Shown here: one piece after another, positions 49,366 to 62,388 of the stretch | Numbering within the stretch: position 1 is the first letter of the stretch | How the letters are laid out: the number at the start of each line of letters is the position of its first letter | The notes under the pieces: generated by a model | What the model was told of the DNA's origin: nothing | Databases searched by the model: none | The model's input: the letters and a program-made list of their open reading frames with translations, nothing else | Assembly: GCA_903868145.1 (NCBI GenBank) | Contig: CAIPTY010000093.1 | Coordinates: 1 to 64,000 of the forward strand | From: an uncultured Desulfuromonadales bacterium | GTDB lineage: Bacteria; Desulfobacterota; Desulfuromonadia; Geobacterales; Pseudopelobacteraceae | Direction: 5' to 3' | Length of the DNA stretch: 64,000 nt | Made by a program: the position numbers and the translations under genes

Positions 49366-50145
49366 TCAGGTTTTCGGTTTTTCCCCGAGTCTTTCAAAGA
49401 CCTTCATCAGTTCAATGGGAAGCGGGAAAAGAATAGTGCTGTTCTTTTCCACAGCAATCTCAGTAAGCGTTTGCAGGTAGCGCATTTGCATAGCAGCAGG
49501 GTTCTGGCTTAGGGTGTTGGCGGCTTCCAGTAGCTGTTGACTGGCAAGGAGTTCGCCTTCGGCGGCAATAACCTTGGCACGTTTTTCCCGTTCGGCCTCG
49601 GCCTGCTTTCCCATGGCGCGCTGAATCTGTTCAGGAAGGTCAACACTCTTAAGTTCAACTGCAGAGACCTGGATGCCCCATGGTTCGGTAGAGGAATCAA
49701 TAATCTCTCGGAGTCTCAGGCTGAGTTTTTCACGATCCGCCAGCAGTTCGTCCAGTGTTACCTCACCGAGAATGGATCTCAGAGTGGTTTGCGCAATCTG
49801 GCTGGTTGCATAGTTGTAGTCCTCCACGCCGAGGATAGCCTGTTTGGCGTCCATTACCTTGAAGTAAACAACAGCGCTAACCTTCAGACTCACATTATCG
49901 CGAGTGATGATATCCTGGCTCGGCACATCCAGAACTACGGTACGAAGGCTGATACACACGGCTGTCTGAAATGGGCGGAAGACGAAGACGAGACCAGGGC
50001 CCTTGGGTTCCTTGTTCACCTTGCCGAGTGTGAACACCACCAAGCGTTCATACTCATTCACCACCTTGAGGCAGCTCGCAAGCCAGGCGAATGGGATAAG
50101 AATGAATGGTGCGATGCTGAATATTGTGTTGTAAAGTGCAGACAT
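49366..50145 (-). CDS. Slipin (SPFH/Band 7, stomatin-like) membrane protein
   Basis: 259 residues. One N-terminal membrane segment (~5-28) followed by the Band 7 domain: NEYERLVVFTLGKV, GPGLVFVFRPF, TRDNVSLKVSAVVYFKV, IQRAMGKQAEAEREKRAKVIAAEGE. It is probably a membrane-microdomain scaffold. The NfeD-type protease often paired with it is absent here. ACCGGAGGCAAGC precedes the ATG. Confidence 0.92.
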   Translation of the reverse strand: MSALYNTIFSIAPFILIPFAWLASCLKVVNEYERLVVFTLGKVNKEPKGPGLVFVFRPFQTAVCISLRTVVLDVPSQDIITRDNVSLKVSAVVYFKVMDAKQAILGVEDYNYATSQIAQTTLRSILGEVTLDELLADREKLSLRLREIIDSSTEPWGIQVSAVELKSVDLPEQIQRAMGKQAEAEREKRAKVIAAEGELLASQQLLEAANTLSQNPAAMQMRYLQTLTEIAVEKNSTILFPLPIELMKVFERLGEKPKT

Positions 50146-53839: not shown

Positions 53840-55849
53840 ATGCCAAACTTAATTCGTATGAGCGTTGCTATGTCTTTACTTTTCCTAAGTATGTTCGCCG
53901 TGTCGGCAACGGCCCAGGATGAAAAAGGCTCTCTTGATTCATTTAAACAACTCATAAACACCGAAATCACCACTGTGATCGGAGCCAGCAAGTACCAGCA
54001 GGACGTGACCGACGCTCCTGCTTCCGTTTCCATTATCACCTCTGATGATATTCGTAAGGGTGGGTACCGTACCCTATCTGAAATTCTGAACTCGGTGCGC
54101 GGTTTTTATACTACCTACAATCGCGGATACAGCTTTGTCGGATTGAGGGGCTTCAGCCCATTGGGGGACTATGGTACACGCCTGTTGGTGCTGATTGATG
54201 GTCACCGATTGAACGACGCTGTTTATGAACAAGCCCCCATCGGCAGCGACTTTCCGGTTGACATCGATCTCATCGACCGTATTGAAGTCATCCGCGGGCC
54301 GGGATCGTCTCTCTACGGCACCAACGCCTTTCTGGCAGTCATTAACGTTATTACCATCAGTGGCAAGGATCTCAAAGGCGGCGAACTCTCTTCATCCGGT
54401 GGCAGCTTCAATACATGGACCGGTCGCGCCACCGGTGGCGGCAAATTGTCGAACGGCGCTGACTTTTTGTTCTCGGGCAGCTACCGGGACAGCGCCGGAC
54501 GGCAACGTCTGTCGTTCCCGGAATACGCTGCTACCAACAACGGAGTCGCTCAAGGCCTGGATGGTGAAAACTCATGGGATATCTTAACCAAGATCGCCTG
54601 GAAGGACTTCTCACTGTTGCTGTTGCACCAGAACAGAGACAAAACCCTCCCCACAGCCTCCTTCTACTCCATCTTTAACGATCCTGGAGAAAAAACCAGT
54701 GACCGTCACACTCTGGCCGGTCTCAACTTCAGCCGGAATGGAGACTGGGCCACTCTGAACGCCCGCCTGACCTACAATCGTTACGAGTATAGAGGCGACT
54801 ATCCATTGGATAACTCAGGCGTGCGAACTCTGAACCGGGATATCACTGTAGCCGAATGGATCGGTAGCGATCTGTATGCATCCAAAACGTTCGGCAAGCA
54901 CCTGCTGACGATCGGGATGGAACACCGTTGGCAGTTCAGCGAGCAGCAGAGGAACTTCAACGTTATGCCAACCTCCAACACGGTGCTTAACGACAACCAC
55001 CAGAACATAATCCAGGGTTACTATCTTCAGGACGAATACCATATTCTGAATAACTTGATTCTGAACGCCGGTCTGCGCTACGACTACTATGACAATTTCG
55101 GCGGCACGATCAACCCACGGGCAGCCCTGATCTGGAAGCCTCAGAAGAGTAGCGTGCTGCGTCTTTCCTACGGCGAAGCCTTTCGGGCACCCAATGCCTA
55201 TGAACGGTACTATTCTGACCAGGTCGGCATTAAAGGAAACTCGGGCCTGAAACCGGAAAAGATTCGCACCATGGAGCTTGGCTGGGATCAGTTCATAGGT
55301 AACAATTTCAAAACTACCGTTACCGCTTACTATTCACGCATCGAGGATATGCTGGATCAGACAATTGATGGTTCTGACGGTCTGGCGGTCTTCAAGAATC
55401 AGAGTCAAATTGAGTTAAAAGGGATTGAGCTGCAAGCGGAAGGGAAATGGGAAAGCGGTTTCAGCGGACGTGTGAGCTACGGTTATCAGGAGAGTAAAAA
55501 ACAGGGAAGCGCTCAAGCCCCCGCCAATTCCCCTGGCAGCTTGGCAAAGGCATCCCTGACCGCTCCCCTCCCTCTTAAAAAAAGCTTCGCCACCATTGAA
55601 ACGCTCTACAGCAGTTCTCGTCTTAATGCGGCAGGCGACAAGATTGCCGGTGCCGCCATCGTTAACCTGACGTTGCTGAGCCGTGATCTGGTGAAGGGGC
55701 TGGATCTCTCTGCTTCGATCTATAACCTATTTGATACCCGGTATGCAATGCCAGTCGGGCCCGAACAGACCAACAGTCTTTCGGAAACCCTCCGGAGCAT
55801 CCAGCAGGACGGTATCACCTTCCGTATAAAAGCCACATACCGGTTCTGA
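53840..55849 (+). CDS. TonB-dependent outer-membrane receptor
   Basis: 669 residues with signal peptide ending near VSATA. Plug: VTDAPASVSIITSDDIRKGGYRTL, RLLVLIDGHRLND, IDRIEVIRGPGSSLYGTNAFLAVIN. Then a beta-barrel with LRLSYGEAFRAPNAYERYY and GLKPEKIRTMELGW, ending in a terminal aromatic FRIKATYRF for assembly. Ligand unknown. It heads an operon with YfiR-like and GGDEF-EAL genes, suggesting a receptor coupled to c-di-GMP output. AAAGAGGATCAC precedes the ATG. Confidence 0.93.
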   Translation: MPNLIRMSVAMSLLFLSMFAVSATAQDEKGSLDSFKQLINTEITTVIGASKYQQDVTDAPASVSIITSDDIRKGGYRTLSEILNSVRGFYTTYNRGYSFVGLRGFSPLGDYGTRLLVLIDGHRLNDAVYEQAPIGSDFPVDIDLIDRIEVIRGPGSSLYGTNAFLAVINVITISGKDLKGGELSSSGGSFNTWTGRATGGGKLSNGADFLFSGSYRDSAGRQRLSFPEYAATNNGVAQGLDGENSWDILTKIAWKDFSLLLLHQNRDKTLPTASFYSIFNDPGEKTSDRHTLAGLNFSRNGDWATLNARLTYNRYEYRGDYPLDNSGVRTLNRDITVAEWIGSDLYASKTFGKHLLTIGMEHRWQFSEQQRNFNVMPTSNTVLNDNHQNIIQGYYLQDEYHILNNLILNAGLRYDYYDNFGGTINPRAALIWKPQKSSVLRLSYGEAFRAPNAYERYYSDQVGIKGNSGLKPEKIRTMELGWDQFIGNNFKTTVTAYYSRIEDMLDQTIDGSDGLAVFKNQSQIELKGIELQAEGKWESGFSGRVSYGYQESKKQGSAQAPANSPGSLAKASLTAPLPLKKSFATIETLYSSSRLNAAGDKIAGAAIVNLTLLSRDLVKGLDLSASIYNLFDTRYAMPVGPEQTNSLSETLRSIQQDGITFRIKATYRF

Positions 55850-55857
55850 CCGTGGTT

Positions 55858-56382
55858 ATGAAATGGTTTGTCATACTGATGATGGTTATGCTCCCTACAG
55901 CACTTTCATATGGGCAAGACCAGGATATTCCTAATGAATATCTGATCAAGGTCAAGTATCTGCTCAATATACCGCTTTTTTCCGAGGCAAATTCAAAGAT
56001 AAGCAGCACTACATCTTACGCCATCTGCCTGGTCGGCGACACTCCTCTGGAGAGCATCCTTGCGTCATCGAAGGGAATAGTTATCAAGAAGCTTCCTCTG
56101 GCTGTCTACAAAGTGGAGGAGCTCCGTCAGATAGACAGTTGCCAGATGCTGTTTGTTGCCTCATCAGAACGTTACCGTTTGCAAATACTGCTGTCGGAGG
56201 CCCATCGACACGGGATTATGACCATCAGTGACATGCGCGACTTCGCCCGTCTGGGTGGCATGATAGGGCTGTTGACTATAGACAACCGGATCGCCTTCGA
56301 CCTTAACCTGTCCGCCGCCGGCAAGGCCTCCATCTCTTTCAGTTCGCATCTACTGAAATTAGCCCACGATATAATTAAGTGA
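55858..56382 (+). CDS. YfiR-like periplasmic protein (DUF4154)
   Basis: 174 residues from ATG 55858; GTG 55852 is the alternative. Signal peptide (MKWFVILMMVMLPTALSYG). EYLIKVKYLLNIPLF, YAICLVGDTPLESIL, CQMLFVASSERYRLQILL, GIMTISDMRDFARLGGMIGLL and NRIAFDLNLSAAGKASISFSS match the YfiR family. In Pseudomonas YfiR binds and represses the cyclase YfiN; the neighbour here has the matching periplasmic sensor layout, so a similar inhibition is inferred. Confidence 0.9.
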   Translation: MKWFVILMMVMLPTALSYGQDQDIPNEYLIKVKYLLNIPLFSEANSKISSTTSYAICLVGDTPLESILASSKGIVIKKLPLAVYKVEELRQIDSCQMLFVASSERYRLQILLSEAHRHGIMTISDMRDFARLGGMIGLLTIDNRIAFDLNLSAAGKASISFSSHLLKLAHDIIK

Positions 56383-56386
56383 GACC

Positions 56387-58555
56387 ATGAACTTAATCGA
56401 ACGCAGATTCAGGTCACTTTCAAGTTTTCGCAGCAAGCAGAGACTGATTATCATGCTCTCCTGTTCCATCGTGCTGTTGACCACCATGATCAGCTTTCTG
56501 GTCTATAGTTTTTTCGCTTTCAATCAGGACAGTCGTGAGCGACTGGGCATGCTGAGCGACATCATTGCCGCAGATGTTGGAGCCGCTCTGGCATTTGCCG
56601 ATGATCAGGCTGTAAGCAAATCACTCGCTGCTTTCAAGGCTGACGAATCAATCAATCAAATCATCGTACTGAATGAACAAAATCAGGTCAGCGCCTTTTA
56701 TCATCAGAAAATGGATAAAATGCCGGGAAACCTTCAGCAATACCTGAGGGAACTGCGTTCCAAGGCCGGAAAATATCTTTTTGTACTGAACCCCGTACTG
56801 GAAAGCCCTGTCAGCAGAGACGGCATCCATCTTGGAAGCGTTATCATCGAGCAGGGCGAACACGTCATTTCCAGAAAACTGGCCGCCACCACCGGTATCA
56901 GCGCCCTGATTCTGTTGTTTTCTCTCCTGTTCAGCTATCTGCTGGCCGAGCGTTTCCAGCGGCTAATCACCGAACCGGTGACCGCTATGGCTACCACCAT
57001 GCAAGAGGTTAGTTACACCAAGGATTATTCAAAGCGAGTGGTAACCGGTGACCTTGACGAGATTGGGCATTTAGCGAAGCACTTCAATGAGATGCTGGCA
57101 GAAATAGAACGGCGGGACATTTCTCTTATTGAGCGTCATGAAGAACTTTACAAGCTTGCAAATTTTGACACATTGACCGGTCTGCCGAATCGCGCCCTTT
57201 TCAGCGACCGACTGGAGCAGGCTCTGCGTCGGGCTAGCAGAACCGGAGAATGCCTGGCTGTGCTTTTCATCGATCTGGATAATTTCAAGATGATTAACGA
57301 TACCCATGGGCACCTGATCGGTGACAAGTTTCTACAGGAAACAGCCGCCAGGCTTGCGGCCGGTACCCGTGCAGAAGACACTCTGGCACGCCTGGGGGGG
57401 GATGAGTTCTCAGTTTTTCTACAGGATGTCAAGACAACGGAAAATGCCATGATGATAGCCCGCAAACATGTTGAAAACCTGTTTCCTCACTTTCAGGTTG
57501 ACGATAAAAGTCTGTTCGCGTCCGCCAGCATTGGAGTAGCGATTTTCCCCAAACATGGTATCACAGCGGAAGTTTTAGTCAAAAATGCCGATTCCGCTAT
57601 GTACCTGGCAAAAGAAAAAGGAAAAAATAACGTCGATCTCTTCACAGACTCACTGGACATAAAGCTTTCGGAAAAATTAACCCTCAGCACCGATCTGCGC
57701 AAGGCGCTGGAACTGGACGAATTTGAGTTGTATTACCAGCCCAGAATAAACCTGGAGAAAAATACCTGGGCCAGCGCCGAGGCTTTGATTCGCTGGAACC
57801 ACCCGGATCTGGGAATAGTTTCCCCAGATAAATTCATACCCCTGGCCGTACAAACCGGCCTGATTCTTCCGATTGGTGAATGGGTGCTCCGTGAAGCGTG
57901 TCGCCAACTTCATGAATGGCATTGCCAGGGTTTCCAACTCCCGAGAATATCCGTAAACGTATCGCCACTTCAGTTGCAGCGACAGGACCTGCTTGGTATT
58001 GTAAAGGATGTACTTACAGCAAACAGCCTCTGCACTCAGTCTCTGGAACTGGAAATCGTGGAAAGTGCCCTGATGGAAGATATGGGGCGTTCCATAACGG
58101 TTCTGAAGGAATTGCGGAACATTGGCGTGAAAATCAGTATCGACGATTTTGGAACCGGATATTCATCGCTTAGTTATCTGCATGCTCTGCCGATCGATAT
58201 TTTGAAAATTGACCGGTCATTTCTGTGGCAAGTACACGAATCCAAAGAAGATGAGCAGATCTTTGCCGCAATCGTAGCCATTTCATTAAGCCTTGGCCTT
58301 GAAGTGGTTACCGAAGGCGTCGAGAACATAGAACATGAACAGATACTAAAAAAATATAGCTGTCATGAAGCTCAGGGGTATTTTTACGCTAGGCCATTGC
58401 CTGCTGCTGATCTTTTTCAGCGCTTCATGACGACAAAGATGGGCCTCAATGACGTTCGGTTGCAATCTTTTGAAAACTCCAAACCCTGCTGCTGCATGCT
58501 TGCAAATGGTCCAGCCAGCCGCTGTGGAGATGGGCCAAAACTGTTATGTGCGTGA
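56387..58555 (+). CDS. Membrane GGDEF-EAL protein with CHASE8-like sensor (YfiN-like)
   Basis: 722 residues. TM1 (~22-42) and TM2 (~165-185) flank a ~120-residue periplasmic region with the SDIIAADVGAALAFADDQAVSKSL motif of CHASE8/YfiN. HAMP (~188-240), GGDEF with active RLGGDEF and RAED I-site, and EAL with EALIRWNHP, NVSPLQLQR and DDFGTGYSS. Both catalytic motifs look intact, unlike YfiN which lacks EAL. It could make or degrade c-di-GMP under YfiR and receptor control. Starts 5 bp after the YfiR-like gene. Confidence 0.92.
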   Translation: MNLIERRFRSLSSFRSKQRLIIMLSCSIVLLTTMISFLVYSFFAFNQDSRERLGMLSDIIAADVGAALAFADDQAVSKSLAAFKADESINQIIVLNEQNQVSAFYHQKMDKMPGNLQQYLRELRSKAGKYLFVLNPVLESPVSRDGIHLGSVIIEQGEHVISRKLAATTGISALILLFSLLFSYLLAERFQRLITEPVTAMATTMQEVSYTKDYSKRVVTGDLDEIGHLAKHFNEMLAEIERRDISLIERHEELYKLANFDTLTGLPNRALFSDRLEQALRRASRTGECLAVLFIDLDNFKMINDTHGHLIGDKFLQETAARLAAGTRAEDTLARLGGDEFSVFLQDVKTTENAMMIARKHVENLFPHFQVDDKSLFASASIGVAIFPKHGITAEVLVKNADSAMYLAKEKGKNNVDLFTDSLDIKLSEKLTLSTDLRKALELDEFELYYQPRINLEKNTWASAEALIRWNHPDLGIVSPDKFIPLAVQTGLILPIGEWVLREACRQLHEWHCQGFQLPRISVNVSPLQLQRQDLLGIVKDVLTANSLCTQSLELEIVESALMEDMGRSITVLKELRNIGVKISIDDFGTGYSSLSYLHALPIDILKIDRSFLWQVHESKEDEQIFAAIVAISLSLGLEVVTEGVENIEHEQILKKYSCHEAQGYFYARPLPAADLFQRFMTTKMGLNDVRLQSFENSKPCCCMLANGPASRCGDGPKLLCA

Positions 58556-58782
58556 TGTTTTAACACTCCTGCAATCTCATATATGAAGGCCTTTACACTC
58601 GTTGCGACAATTATGCTGAAGAGAAAAATCAACCATCTATGCAACCTACAACCGTGCTAAAAATAGCCATTTTATAGCATGTTGTAAATATTTATCTGAT
58701 CAGGTGCAACCTATGGAGGGCAAATGGCTGACAAGATCAGCTAACAAAAGACAAGGTCACATGCTCTTTTTCTTTGTCATAC
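58556..58782. other. Intergenic stretch without detectable gene
   Basis: AT-rich; no ribosome-site-backed frame, promoter or hairpin with a T run is seen. It separates the GGDEF-EAL gene from the permease remnant. Confidence 0.5.
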
Positions 58783-58965
58783 TTATTCTTGTTGTAGGTG
58801 CGGATTGCTTCTTTCCCGATTTTGATCTCCCTGTTGTTCTTCTTTAGGTATGCGGCGCACTGTCTGCGGCAGAACGATGTTGAGGAATGTGGTGACCCTG
58901 GTAAATCCCAGGGAGATGCCAGCCTCAGCTTGCCCTTTACTCCCAGGTTGGGCGGATTGGTGGGC
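58783..58965 (-). pseudogene. Remnant of amino-acid ABC transporter permease
   Basis: The minus frame ending at TAA 58783-58785 reads GSKGQAEAGISLGFTRVTTF, then LNIVLPQTVRRIPKE. This matches the cytoplasmic EAA loop of polar amino-acid permeases (usual form: SVPKGQxEAAxALG...F..VxLPQAxRxxLP). There is no start, no membrane helices before it, and the frame after PKE is unrelated. It lies just downstream of the Tat-type cysteine-synthase-like gene, on the same strand, so an amino-acid uptake gene may have been lost. Confidence 0.55.
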
Positions 58966-59019
58966 GGAGCGTTGTTTTCATCCAGGCTCCAGGTAACAGG
59001 ATTTATAACAAGCCTGCTT

Positions 59020-60342
59020 CTAAGTCACAGACGGCTCCCGCCATTGCCCCGTCTCCCAGAAACGCTTCAGGGCAGCCCGCCACGGTTCAGGATTCAGCCC
59101 CGCTTCTGCAAGCCATGCCGGCCGGTAGTATTTGTCCCGGTAACGGGCACCCTCGTCACAGATGATGCTGACAACAGAACCACCACGCCCTTCACTGTTC
59201 ATCTTGTCCATTTGACGCAGAACGCCGTAGAAGTTTGTCCCGGTTGAAGGGCCAACCTCAAATCCGACCAGATCTGAAACAAACTGCATTGCGGCTACGG
59301 AGGCGCTGTCAGGTACTTTGATCATCTGTGAGACTCCTTCCCGCAGAAGGCTGAAGGTTTGCCCGAACACAACCGGCCCTCCGGATCCGATCCCTTCAAT
59401 TCTTGAGCTGGTGGTAATACTTAATTTCTCATCTCCACTCTGATACCAGTCATAGAGAACGGAATCCTCAGGATCTACCACCGCCAGCCGGGAGGGACAG
59501 TTACGGCCGTTGAAGTCAGCCCATTTGCGCAGGTATCTGGCGATGCTGGTTGCAGTGCCCCCGGAACCGGCCCCGGCGACGAACCAGTCTGGACAGTGGA
59601 ATGATTCCATCTCCATCTGACGATAGACCTCAGCCGCAATATTCATGCTCCGGTCTGCGTCGGCGTCAAAGTAGTCAAGCACTTTTTCTGTATTGGCAAA
59701 CTGGTTTAAATTGTAGCCCTGCGGGTCGCTTTTAAGGATTTCTACCAGATACGCGCCAGGGCTCTGACCGGGGGGTGCAATGGCAACCTTGCCCCCATAC
59801 TGCTTGATAGCGCTGATTTTAAGTTCACTGATGCCGGGGCGCATGACCGCCGTAAACGACAGACCGAGCAATCCGGCAAAATATGCCTCCCCGATGGCTG
59901 TGTTTCCGCTCGTAGTCTCATACAGATTCGACTTCGGGCCAATGGTGCCATTGACCAGAGCCGCCATGATAAGCCCCCACGCAACCCGGTGCTTGAGGCT
60001 GCCGGTGGGAGATTTTGCCTCGTTTTTCAGATAGATGTGCAGATCCTTCCTGAAAGGCGCCTTCAGATGCAGGAGCGGTGTTATCCCGGAACGTTTTCGC
60101 TCTGACCACATCAACTTGATGGCATCCCTGCTCCAGGCAGGATCCGTCACGATTCGTGATGTCTCCCGCGCCGAACGGTTGAGCGGTGCAGTTGAACAGA
60201 GAGAAACTGCAGGACAAGCCAACAGAGTCAGGCCAATTGCGGTTTCTTTAAGAAATGTCCTGCGGTTGCAGGTACGCCCATGAGAACTCTCTCCCATCTC
60301 GACGGTTTTACTAAAAACCGCTTCATCTGTTGCGTTTTTCAT
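59020..60342 (-). CDS. Exported PLP-dependent cysteine-synthase-like enzyme
   Basis: 440 residues. Residues ~25-50 (CNRRTFLKETAIGLTLLACPA) form a twin-arginine signal, with LLAC a possible lipobox. The rest is a fold-type II PLP enzyme: Lys117 in SPTGSLKHR (Schiff base), TSGNT (substrate carboxylate loop) and GAGSGGTATS (phosphate loop). It resembles cysteine synthase/cystathionine beta-synthase but is ~100 residues longer. Tat export of a cofactor-loaded beta-lyase makes sense, since PLP would be inserted before transport, but such enzymes are normally cytoplasmic. AGGAGGTTCACT precedes the ATG. Confidence 0.88.
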   Translation of the reverse strand: MKNATDEAVFSKTVEMGESSHGRTCNRRTFLKETAIGLTLLACPAVSLCSTAPLNRSARETSRIVTDPAWSRDAIKLMWSERKRSGITPLLHLKAPFRKDLHIYLKNEAKSPTGSLKHRVAWGLIMAALVNGTIGPKSNLYETTSGNTAIGEAYFAGLLGLSFTAVMRPGISELKISAIKQYGGKVAIAPPGQSPGAYLVEILKSDPQGYNLNQFANTEKVLDYFDADADRSMNIAAEVYRQMEMESFHCPDWFVAGAGSGGTATSIARYLRKWADFNGRNCPSRLAVVDPEDSVLYDWYQSGDEKLSITTSSRIEGIGSGGPVVFGQTFSLLREGVSQMIKVPDSASVAAMQFVSDLVGFEVGPSTGTNFYGVLRQMDKMNSEGRGGSVVSIICDEGARYRDKYYRPAWLAEAGLNPEPWRAALKRFWETGQWREPSVT

Positions 60343-60472
60343 AGTGAACCTCCTGATTTTGATCTGACCTGTCAGAAAATTTCAATAAGGTATGTCAGAC
60401 AACTCGATTGTACTGTAGAAAAATAGCCAAATACGTTGAAGTGCTTTCCAGTATTCCACGGCCAAGATCAAC

Positions 60473-60503
60473 AGAAGGCTCCTCATGCATCGGGGAGCCT
60501 TCT
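60473..60503. terminator. Terminator hairpin between metallophosphoesterase and lyase genes
   Basis: AGAAGGCTCC (60473-60482) pairs with GGAGCCTTCT (60494-60503). It lies downstream of the minus gene at 60577. The T run is weak. Confidence 0.7.
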
Positions 60504-60576
60504 TATGTGAATCACAGGTTCCCGTTCGGAATAATCTCGATGATCTTGTTATTAACGCACGTGAGAAACGATAGTC

Positions 60577-62388
60577 TTAATACGACCATGTCTGGGTATC
60601 CACGATCCCTCCATCAGCTATAGCCCCTCCCGTGCCGGTGTGTGCACCTATGATTTCAGCCGTTATTGTCCTGGCTTTGTAGTCAACACTGAACTTCCCG
60701 TAGGCAAAATCCGCAAGTGGTGTCGGAAGACCCGATGAAAATGGCAGCATCCAGCTTGCAAACGTATTTTCCATATCTTTGGCTCCCCCTGTTCCAAGGA
60801 CGTAATAGTTAACATTATTTTGCAGGGTGCGTGCGGTTCTGTGTGTGTGACCTGAAATGACGATCACATTCTTTCTGCCGTTTATCAGCGGCTGAATATC
60901 TGCATTGAGCTTCGTCATATTATCCCAGTAGTCACCTATTTCCGAACTGTCGCTGCCGTACGGTGCCGGATGCAATAGCAGGATAATGGGACCGCCTGAG
61001 TAGGCGCCAGCAATCCAGGTTTGAATTTTTGCCTTGATAGTTGCAGCATCAGTAACCGAATAACAGTTGTAGGTATTCAGCACGATAACCCTGATCCCAC
61101 CATAGTCAGCCATATAGGTGTACGAGTCATAAGAAGTTGTGCCATCTTTCAGCGTAACATTATCATCGGAGCTCCTGTAGATCCCCGCCATTAAGGAACC
61201 ATACTCCTCAAAACTTCCACGTTTGTAACTTGTCTGCCCAAAACTGTCCTTTCCCTCATGATTTCCAGCGCTCATATAGGTAGGAACTGATGCTCTCATC
61301 CATGTATGGTATCTCAAGTCATTTGTTGTAAATTTAGAATCAAAGCCGTTGGCTGATCTGAGCCATTCGTGCGCCCAGCCATAATGGCGGTAGCCAGTAA
61401 TGAGGTTCATTACATCGATATGCTGTCCCATTTCCGTGGCATCACCGTTGTGAGCCAAGAAAGTCTGAACGTTGGGATCAGTTGCCAACCCACTGGATTT
61501 AATTAGACTCTCTTCGACTTGTGGAAGGTTGTCAGTGTCACTGTCATACAGTCTCCGGTTATCACCAAAACTGAAAAAGACCTGATTGGAAACCACTCCG
61601 CTTTGAATGTCTGCCCAACTGGGAGCCGTGCGGAAGGAGGCATCGACGGCAGAGACACCACCGCTATTTGTTACAGTTACTGTGTAGCTGAATAATCTGT
61701 TTGAGGGAAGTCCACTGAAAGTATACTGGCGTATATCCTGATCCCCTATCTGTGAGGAGCCTAAGGTGGTTGTTTTAACCATGGCAAAAGGGCCATATGG
61801 CGTATTATTTGTTGTGTCGGTTACTTTAACCGTAGCGGTAGCTTTCGGTGATAAACCGATTCGTACCGTCATATTGCTCGTATTGGTAGCGTTGTCCTGA
61901 GTATAGAGAAGCCATGGCCCCATGCTGATAGTTGACGGAACTGTGAGGAACTTTATAAGTCCAAAAGAGCCATTTGGTGCCATAGCTCTAGCCCGAACTG
62001 TTGATGGACCCGCGTTTGAACGGGTAAACGTGCCGTTCATTCTTCCGGCACTATATGTTCCATTATACTTGATGGTCGATGTTGGGCTGGTGAGAGTCAT
62101 CTGTATGATGTTGTTCTCTAGTGAGCCGACCGCATGAAAAAGTTCTTCGTCAATTGATATGGAACCGCTGAAATCCTTTGAATCTTTAGCATGAACAATG
62201 TCTACCTTGATATTGGGATTTCCAGATGAGACCGCTTCGGAATGAACCCCACCCCAGGGGCCGTGCAGTATCCCTACTTCATAAGAGACTGGTACCGAGT
62301 TGTCACCATCACTGCATCCGGCAGAAAGAAATAAAACTCCAAGCAACAGAATGCAGAAGCATCTTTTAAGAATCCAGAACAGTTTCAC
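60577..62388 (-). CDS. Calcineurin-like metallophosphoesterase lipoprotein
   Basis: 603 residues from GTG 62388, preceded by AAAGGAGAAATATC. Lipobox LSAGC. The N-terminal ~150 residues are beta-rich and unassigned; a fibronectin-like domain (~160-265) precedes the phosphoesterase core with FGDNR, HNGDATE, AGNHEG, LLLHPAPYG and SGHTHR, the metal ligands of purple acid phosphatase-like enzymes. It may release phosphate outside the cytoplasm; substrate unknown. Confidence 0.9.
   Translation of the reverse strand: MKLFWILKRCFCILLLGVLFLSAGCSDGDNSVPVSYEVGILHGPWGGVHSEAVSSGNPNIKVDIVHAKDSKDFSGSISIDEELFHAVGSLENNIIQMTLTSPTSTIKYNGTYSAGRMNGTFTRSNAGPSTVRARAMAPNGSFGLIKFLTVPSTISMGPWLLYTQDNATNTSNMTVRIGLSPKATATVKVTDTTNNTPYGPFAMVKTTTLGSSQIGDQDIRQYTFSGLPSNRLFSYTVTVTNSGGVSAVDASFRTAPSWADIQSGVVSNQVFFSFGDNRRLYDSDTDNLPQVEESLIKSSGLATDPNVQTFLAHNGDATEMGQHIDVMNLITGYRHYGWAHEWLRSANGFDSKFTTNDLRYHTWMRASVPTYMSAGNHEGKDSFGQTSYKRGSFEEYGSLMAGIYRSSDDNVTLKDGTTSYDSYTYMADYGGIRVIVLNTYNCYSVTDAATIKAKIQTWIAGAYSGGPIILLLHPAPYGSDSSEIGDYWDNMTKLNADIQPLINGRKNVIVISGHTHRTARTLQNNVNYYVLGTGGAKDMENTFASWMLPFSSGLPTPLADFAYGKFSVDYKARTITAEIIGAHTGTGGAIADGGIVDTQTWSY

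Follow-up and report, generated by a model that had tools for sequence, protein, structure and literature searches.

A gene in the 64,000-nucleotide stretch of DNA analysed here (the window) encodes a fold-type II pyridoxal phosphate (PLP) enzyme with a Tat-like export signal. We consider it an even chance that this single gene specifies a Tat-exported β-eliminating lyase, which would act outside the cytoplasm on L-cysteine or on a close β-substituted alanine; such chemistry would agree with the best family match, the L-cysteine desulfhydrase Cds1. More tentatively, and at somewhat less than an even chance, the enzyme may represent a new subfamily of exported fold-type II PLP lyases, which would be sister to the cytosolic Cds1/CdsH, moved to the periplasm by Tat and reshaped at its active site. 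By handling cysteine or metal–thiol species outside the cytoplasm, it would keep the formation of sulfide and of the damaging intermediate 2-aminoacrylate away from the cytosolic PLP enzymes.

The gene is one open frame, whose coordinates in Table 1 include the stop codon, and its product has 440 residues. The protein contains a PALP domain (Pfam PF00291, E = 2.5e-45) with both hallmarks of the superfamily, the Schiff-base lysine and the glycine-rich phosphate loop. A GPSTGTN motif is also present and, like SPTGSLKHR, TSGNT and GSGGT, is invariant in the alignment of the enzyme with its orthologues; the catalytic frame therefore looks intact. An AlphaFold model built from three sequences had a mean pLDDT of 41.5, which is too poor for use.

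Table 1. Coordinates in the window of the enzyme gene, its motifs and the features around it.
Feature	Position	Strand	Basis
Predicted exported PALP (fold-type II PLP) enzyme, related to Cds1/CdsH	59020..60342	-	Profile searches and orthologues
Shine-Dalgarno-like AGGAGG, 6 nt ahead of the enzyme ATG	60349..60354	-	Sequence
N-terminal extension that carries the Tat-like signal, with RR as residues 27-28 and RRTFLK followed by ETAIGLTLLACPAVSL	60178..60342	-	Sequence; end of signal approximate
Presumed PLP-binding lysine K117 in SPTGSLKHR	59992..59994	-	Alignments
Substrate-carboxylate (asparagine) loop TSGNT, residues 144-148	59899..59913	-	Alignments; SSGST in CdsH/Cds1-type enzymes
PLP phosphate loop GSGGT, residues 259-263	59554..59568	-	Alignments
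Terminator-like hairpin separating the enzyme gene from the upstream metallophosphoesterase gene	60476..60507	.	Read by eye; absent from terminator-scan output
EAA-loop fragment of a fused SBP-permease gene, 89 bp, about 30 codons; a scar, not a partner gene	58850..58938	-	Profile and protein/DNA matches
3'-end fragment of a tyrosine (phage-type) integrase gene, with 83% identity over 52 bp	58764..58815	-	DNA match

The first 68 residues lie outside the Cds1 profile and contain a near-consensus Tat motif, N-RRTFLK, followed by a hydrophobic stretch, which on inspection fits the S/T-RRxFLK-like pattern of Tat substrates. In the two orthologues, the corresponding segments read NRRAFL or TRRAFL and continue into a hydrophobic run longer than that of the window protein, whose own h-region is short (about 9–15 residues after RRTFLKE) and contains a non-conserved LLAC. 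Among the three proteins, only 17 columns are invariant over approximately residues 1–62, and R27, R28, F30 and L31 are included in these. The retention of RRxFL, although the rest of the N-terminus has mostly diverged, makes a Tat export signal well supported by the sequence; as the two orthologues are closely alike, this conservation counts as about two independent lineages. A lipoprotein reading of LLAC (residues 40–43) was rejected, the cysteine being absent from the orthologues. Furthermore, TatC is encoded in the same genome (203 bits), and although 4 of the 96 open frames of at least 100 residues in the window carry a loose RRx motif near the start, we found a signal-like context only in the enzyme by inspection. 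Thus, the Tat-signal-bearing fold-type II PLP enzyme described in an earlier note on this DNA is borne out at the sequence level. All 18 CdsH/Cds1-like homologues from plasmid records start near the enzyme domain, and none shows a Tat signal at its N-terminus; the Caballeronia, Nonomuraea and Polaromonas sequences were read without an annotated start. Loose RRxx matches occur in or upstream of the Azospirillum, Rhodococcus and Nonomuraea homologues, and on inspection no signal-like hydrophobic stretch follows them.

The same note called the enzyme cysteine-synthase-like, which misplaces its nearest family. The best model was Cds1 (NCBIfam NF052478; 312 bits, 5.9e-93), whose whole 354-position profile aligned to residues 69–435, whereas the best cysteine synthase model reached 147 bits; the cysteine synthase and cystathionine β-synthase (CBS) models all gave under half of the Cds1 score. 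One orthologue (L006) scored 318 bits with the Cds1 model; among true relatives, Salmonella CdsH scored 563 bits and an Azospirillum homologue 538. The enzyme falls short of the curated Cds1 cut-off of 600 bits, which Salmonella CdsH itself does not reach, and also of the CysK/CysM family cut-offs (about 344–413 bits), where it scores 147 bits or less. Both sequence marks of the Cds1/CdsH group are replaced. The asparagine loop is the TSGNT of CysK/CysM in the enzyme and its orthologues but SSGST in 18 of 18 plasmid homologues, and IEGIGS(G/S)GPVVFG stands in place of the IEGIGR(P/Q)RVE.SF found in most cytosolic homologues. The alignments also show insertions peculiar to the enzyme clade near KWADFNGRN and FDADxDRSMN. 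In the tree, the enzyme and its two orthologues form one group (support 92/88), which long branches separate from 15 cytosolic homologues; the root was a midpoint with one very distant outgroup, so that only the separation of the groups is reliable.

The lack of a Tat signal and the SSGST loop in the 18 homologues, against TSGNT and the other changes here, indicate that the enzyme and its orthologues are a sister clade separate from cytosolic Cds1/CdsH and, as predicted from their N-termini, exported. The TSGNT loop and the altered IEGIG segment mean that the substrate or the reaction may differ from those of Cds1/CdsH. In CysK, the TSGNT loop closes on the substrate carboxylate (PMC9547175), and plant desulfhydrases are said in a paper on wheat DES1 to differ from cysteine synthases in the TSGNT stretch, although one sentence there reads the opposite (PMC12235670). 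The canonical loop in our enzyme therefore calls for caution in assuming desulfhydrase activity.

Both orthologues, at 74–75% identity, come from Geobacteraceae metagenome-assembled genomes. At strict thresholds, the enzyme was present in 3 of 76 genomes of its own family, Geobacteraceae, in 3 of 277 of its class and, in a phylum sample of 395 genomes, only in its own genome. Exported homologues beyond the phylum were sought in plasmid records and in one single-protein scan of genome contigs, which detects close relatives only; viral contigs held no relative of the enzyme. Our literature search found no paper on a periplasmic or secreted cysteine synthase or desulfhydrase, nor one on Tat substrates together with a Geobacter cysteine synthase. 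Among the plasmid homologues, those of Agrobacterium and Azospirillum belong to gene runs that also encode L-2-amino-thiazoline-4-carboxylate hydrolase, M20 aminoacylase and ABC transporters, which suggests organic-sulfur catabolism operons.

At both orthologue loci, the enzyme gene stands between an upstream MFS gene and a downstream cobalamin riboswitch–cobU–cobT–thiC run; cobU, cobT and thiC were named by reading their translations. In the window, the gene upstream of the enzyme is a metallophosphoesterase with a lipoprotein-like start. As no adjoining neighbour is shared with the orthologues, and as the hairpin upstream also suggests a gene standing alone, the enzyme gene is probably a single-gene unit. 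An operon with the neighbours was rejected on the same two grounds, the differing neighbours and the hairpin, which was read by eye.

Several other features of the window were recorded. The metallophosphoesterase gene (60577–62388, -) had one other match in the 29 genomes searched, at 57% identity and from a different family in the same order. A row of genes that converges on the enzyme gene (53840–58555, +) encodes a TonB-dependent receptor, a YfiR/HmsC-like (DUF4154) protein and a CHASE8-HAMP-GGDEF-EAL protein, likely a c-di-GMP signalling set, and a run at 1650–24207 (+), read from translations, holds sensor kinase, response-regulator, HD-domain-like and GGDEF genes with repeated domains. 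An SPFH/Band-7 (slipin-like) gene (49366–50145, -) lies ~9 kb from the enzyme; a very similar one at L006 (3543–4316, +) is two genes upstream of the enzyme there, in an order that differs from the window, and this may be chance.

How might such an enzyme work outside the cytoplasm? Cds1 converts cysteine to H2S and pyruvate (PMC8389258), and the products of CdsH are pyruvate, sulfide and ammonia (PMC7767077). We propose that, as has been reported for PvdN and PtaA, the protein would fold and take up its PLP in the cytoplasm and only then be exported by Tat. By analogy with Cds1/CdsH, it would then form 2-aminoacrylate from cysteine or a relative, freeing sulfide or another leaving group, and the 2-aminoacrylate would be hydrolysed to pyruvate and ammonia. 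It is plausible that its physiological role is the removal or salvage of cysteine leaked or exported into the periplasm; alternatively, local formation of sulfide might serve to titrate metals. In G. sulfurreducens, cysteine is excreted, and sulfide arises when much cysteine is added (PMC9874932). Such behaviour would make a substrate outside the cytoplasm plausible. Several cytosolic homologues adjoin Rid genes. Rid proteins clear 2-aminoacrylate; within the family, RutC is a 3-aminoacrylate deaminase and RidA an imine deaminase. If the intermediate forms outside the cytoplasm, the exported enzyme would not need a Rid neighbour.

The earlier note also took an EAA-loop remnant of a broken amino-acid permease beside the enzyme as a hint of a former uptake partner. 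Some 80 bp downstream, the same strand does carry an EAA-like stretch of ~30 residues (NCBIfam ArtQ 8.3e-5, EhuC 2.8e-4). Over 31 residues, this stretch shares 81% identity with fused SBP-permeases in two genomes of another Geobacteraceae genus, and its DNA is 73–74% identical over 89–90 bp to the intact genes; it had no Pfam match and, by DNA, no plasmid match. What does not stand is the broken permease gene, as only ~30 codons match: no substrate-binding or further permease segments remain around them, and thus the body by which a polar amino-acid ABC permease gene could be recognised is missing. At the thresholds used, neither this fragment nor the integrase fragment, 34 bp away, has a second copy in the genome, and the two make up a small stretch of gene debris that a mobile element probably left behind. 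The enzyme gene lies between two copies of a 15-nt near-direct repeat (TCCYGATTTTGATCT, one mismatch), at 58814–58828, the edge of the integrase fragment, and at 60351–60365; with about 0.1 such pairs expected by chance on our own estimate, this is no more than a lead for acquisition through a mobile element.

Could the enzyme and the permease once have formed a transport–catabolism pair? The position and strand of the EAA-like stretch, and the fact that some cytosolic homologues adjoin ABC transporter genes, would fit such a history, but the scar-sized fragment beside integrase debris, the different context of the orthologues and the distribution of the intact genes make it scarcely credible. 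The intact homologues are fused SBP-permeases in genomes from which the enzyme is absent, no permease lies near the enzyme at either orthologue locus, and where the type of an ABC transporter next to a cytosolic homologue is named, it is branched-chain or iron-chelate rather than polar-amino-acid. In our proposal, the adjoining fragment would play no part. It is also very unlikely that the N-terminal segment fails to work as a signal and leaves the enzyme in the cytoplasm as an ordinary, divergent desulfhydrase. The short h-region and the poorly conserved N-terminus of the window protein point that way, but all orthologues keep RRxFL despite this divergence, the 18 cytosolic relatives have no such extension, the start site is good and Tat is present.

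With export accepted, the reaction and the substrate might still be others. An exported β-replacement enzyme of the cysteine synthase/CBS type would join the aminoacrylate of an activated serine or cysteine to sulfide or another nucleophile, and would consume sulfide rather than produce it. Its canonical TSGNT loop, as in CysK and unlike Cds1/CdsH, and PLP motifs that belong to the general CysK/CBS superfamily are consistent with this; we nevertheless regard it as unlikely, given the low cysteine synthase and CBS scores, an ordinary cytosolic CysK already encoded in the genome (438 bits) and the formation of O-acetylserine in the cytoplasm, with no periplasmic source of acetylserine known to us. 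Equally, the clade-specific insertions, the changed segment and the long separating branches in the tree could reflect a lyase or deaminase for another periplasmic substrate, such as S-substituted cysteines, D-amino acids, β-haloalanine or metal–thiol complexes, in place of free L-cysteine. The overall closeness of the enzyme to Cds1 argues against this, as does the absence of any genomic neighbour suggestive of such a substrate, and we consider it rather improbable.

If the β-lyase proposal is correct, this Geobacteraceae enzyme would be a possible periplasmic source of sulfide in a family known for metal reduction, which would bear on thiol turnover and on the chemistry of metals and mercury at the cell surface. 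It would also join the small set of known Tat-exported PLP enzymes as a fold-type II member. Of the cytosolic CdsH-group members examined here, none carries an export signal.

Compared with known systems, the enzyme shares with Cds1 (Rv3684), by far its best curated match, the PALP fold, a full-length profile alignment and the PTGSLKHR lysine motif, but it scores half as many bits as true relatives, has TSGNT where they have SSGST, and differs further by an altered IEGIG segment, insertions and an additional N-terminal Tat-like signal. CdsH homologues in plasmid records are 35–43% identical to it over ~365 residues (37% for the Salmonella CdsH copies), and the PTGSLKHR and STGTN motifs are common to the enzyme, CdsH of Salmonella and the homologues of Proteobacteria and Actinobacteria. 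These CdsH-type proteins have no signal sequence and are often encoded beside decR/Lrp-type regulators or Rid genes, both of which are absent near the enzyme. CysK/CysM and CBS have in common with it the fold type, the TSGNT loop and the glycine-rich phosphate loop, but they are cytosolic and their family scores are much weaker; after the lysine, moreover, the enzyme reads KHR, whereas the CysK of the same genome reads KCR. The closest parallels to its proposed route are PvdN and PtaA of Pseudomonas, which are of fold type I, are not homologous to it and serve in pyoverdine tailoring. Like the enzyme in our proposal, both are PLP enzymes exported folded by Tat to the periplasm, and in PvdN, PLP must be bound in the cytoplasm for transport (PMC6206403).
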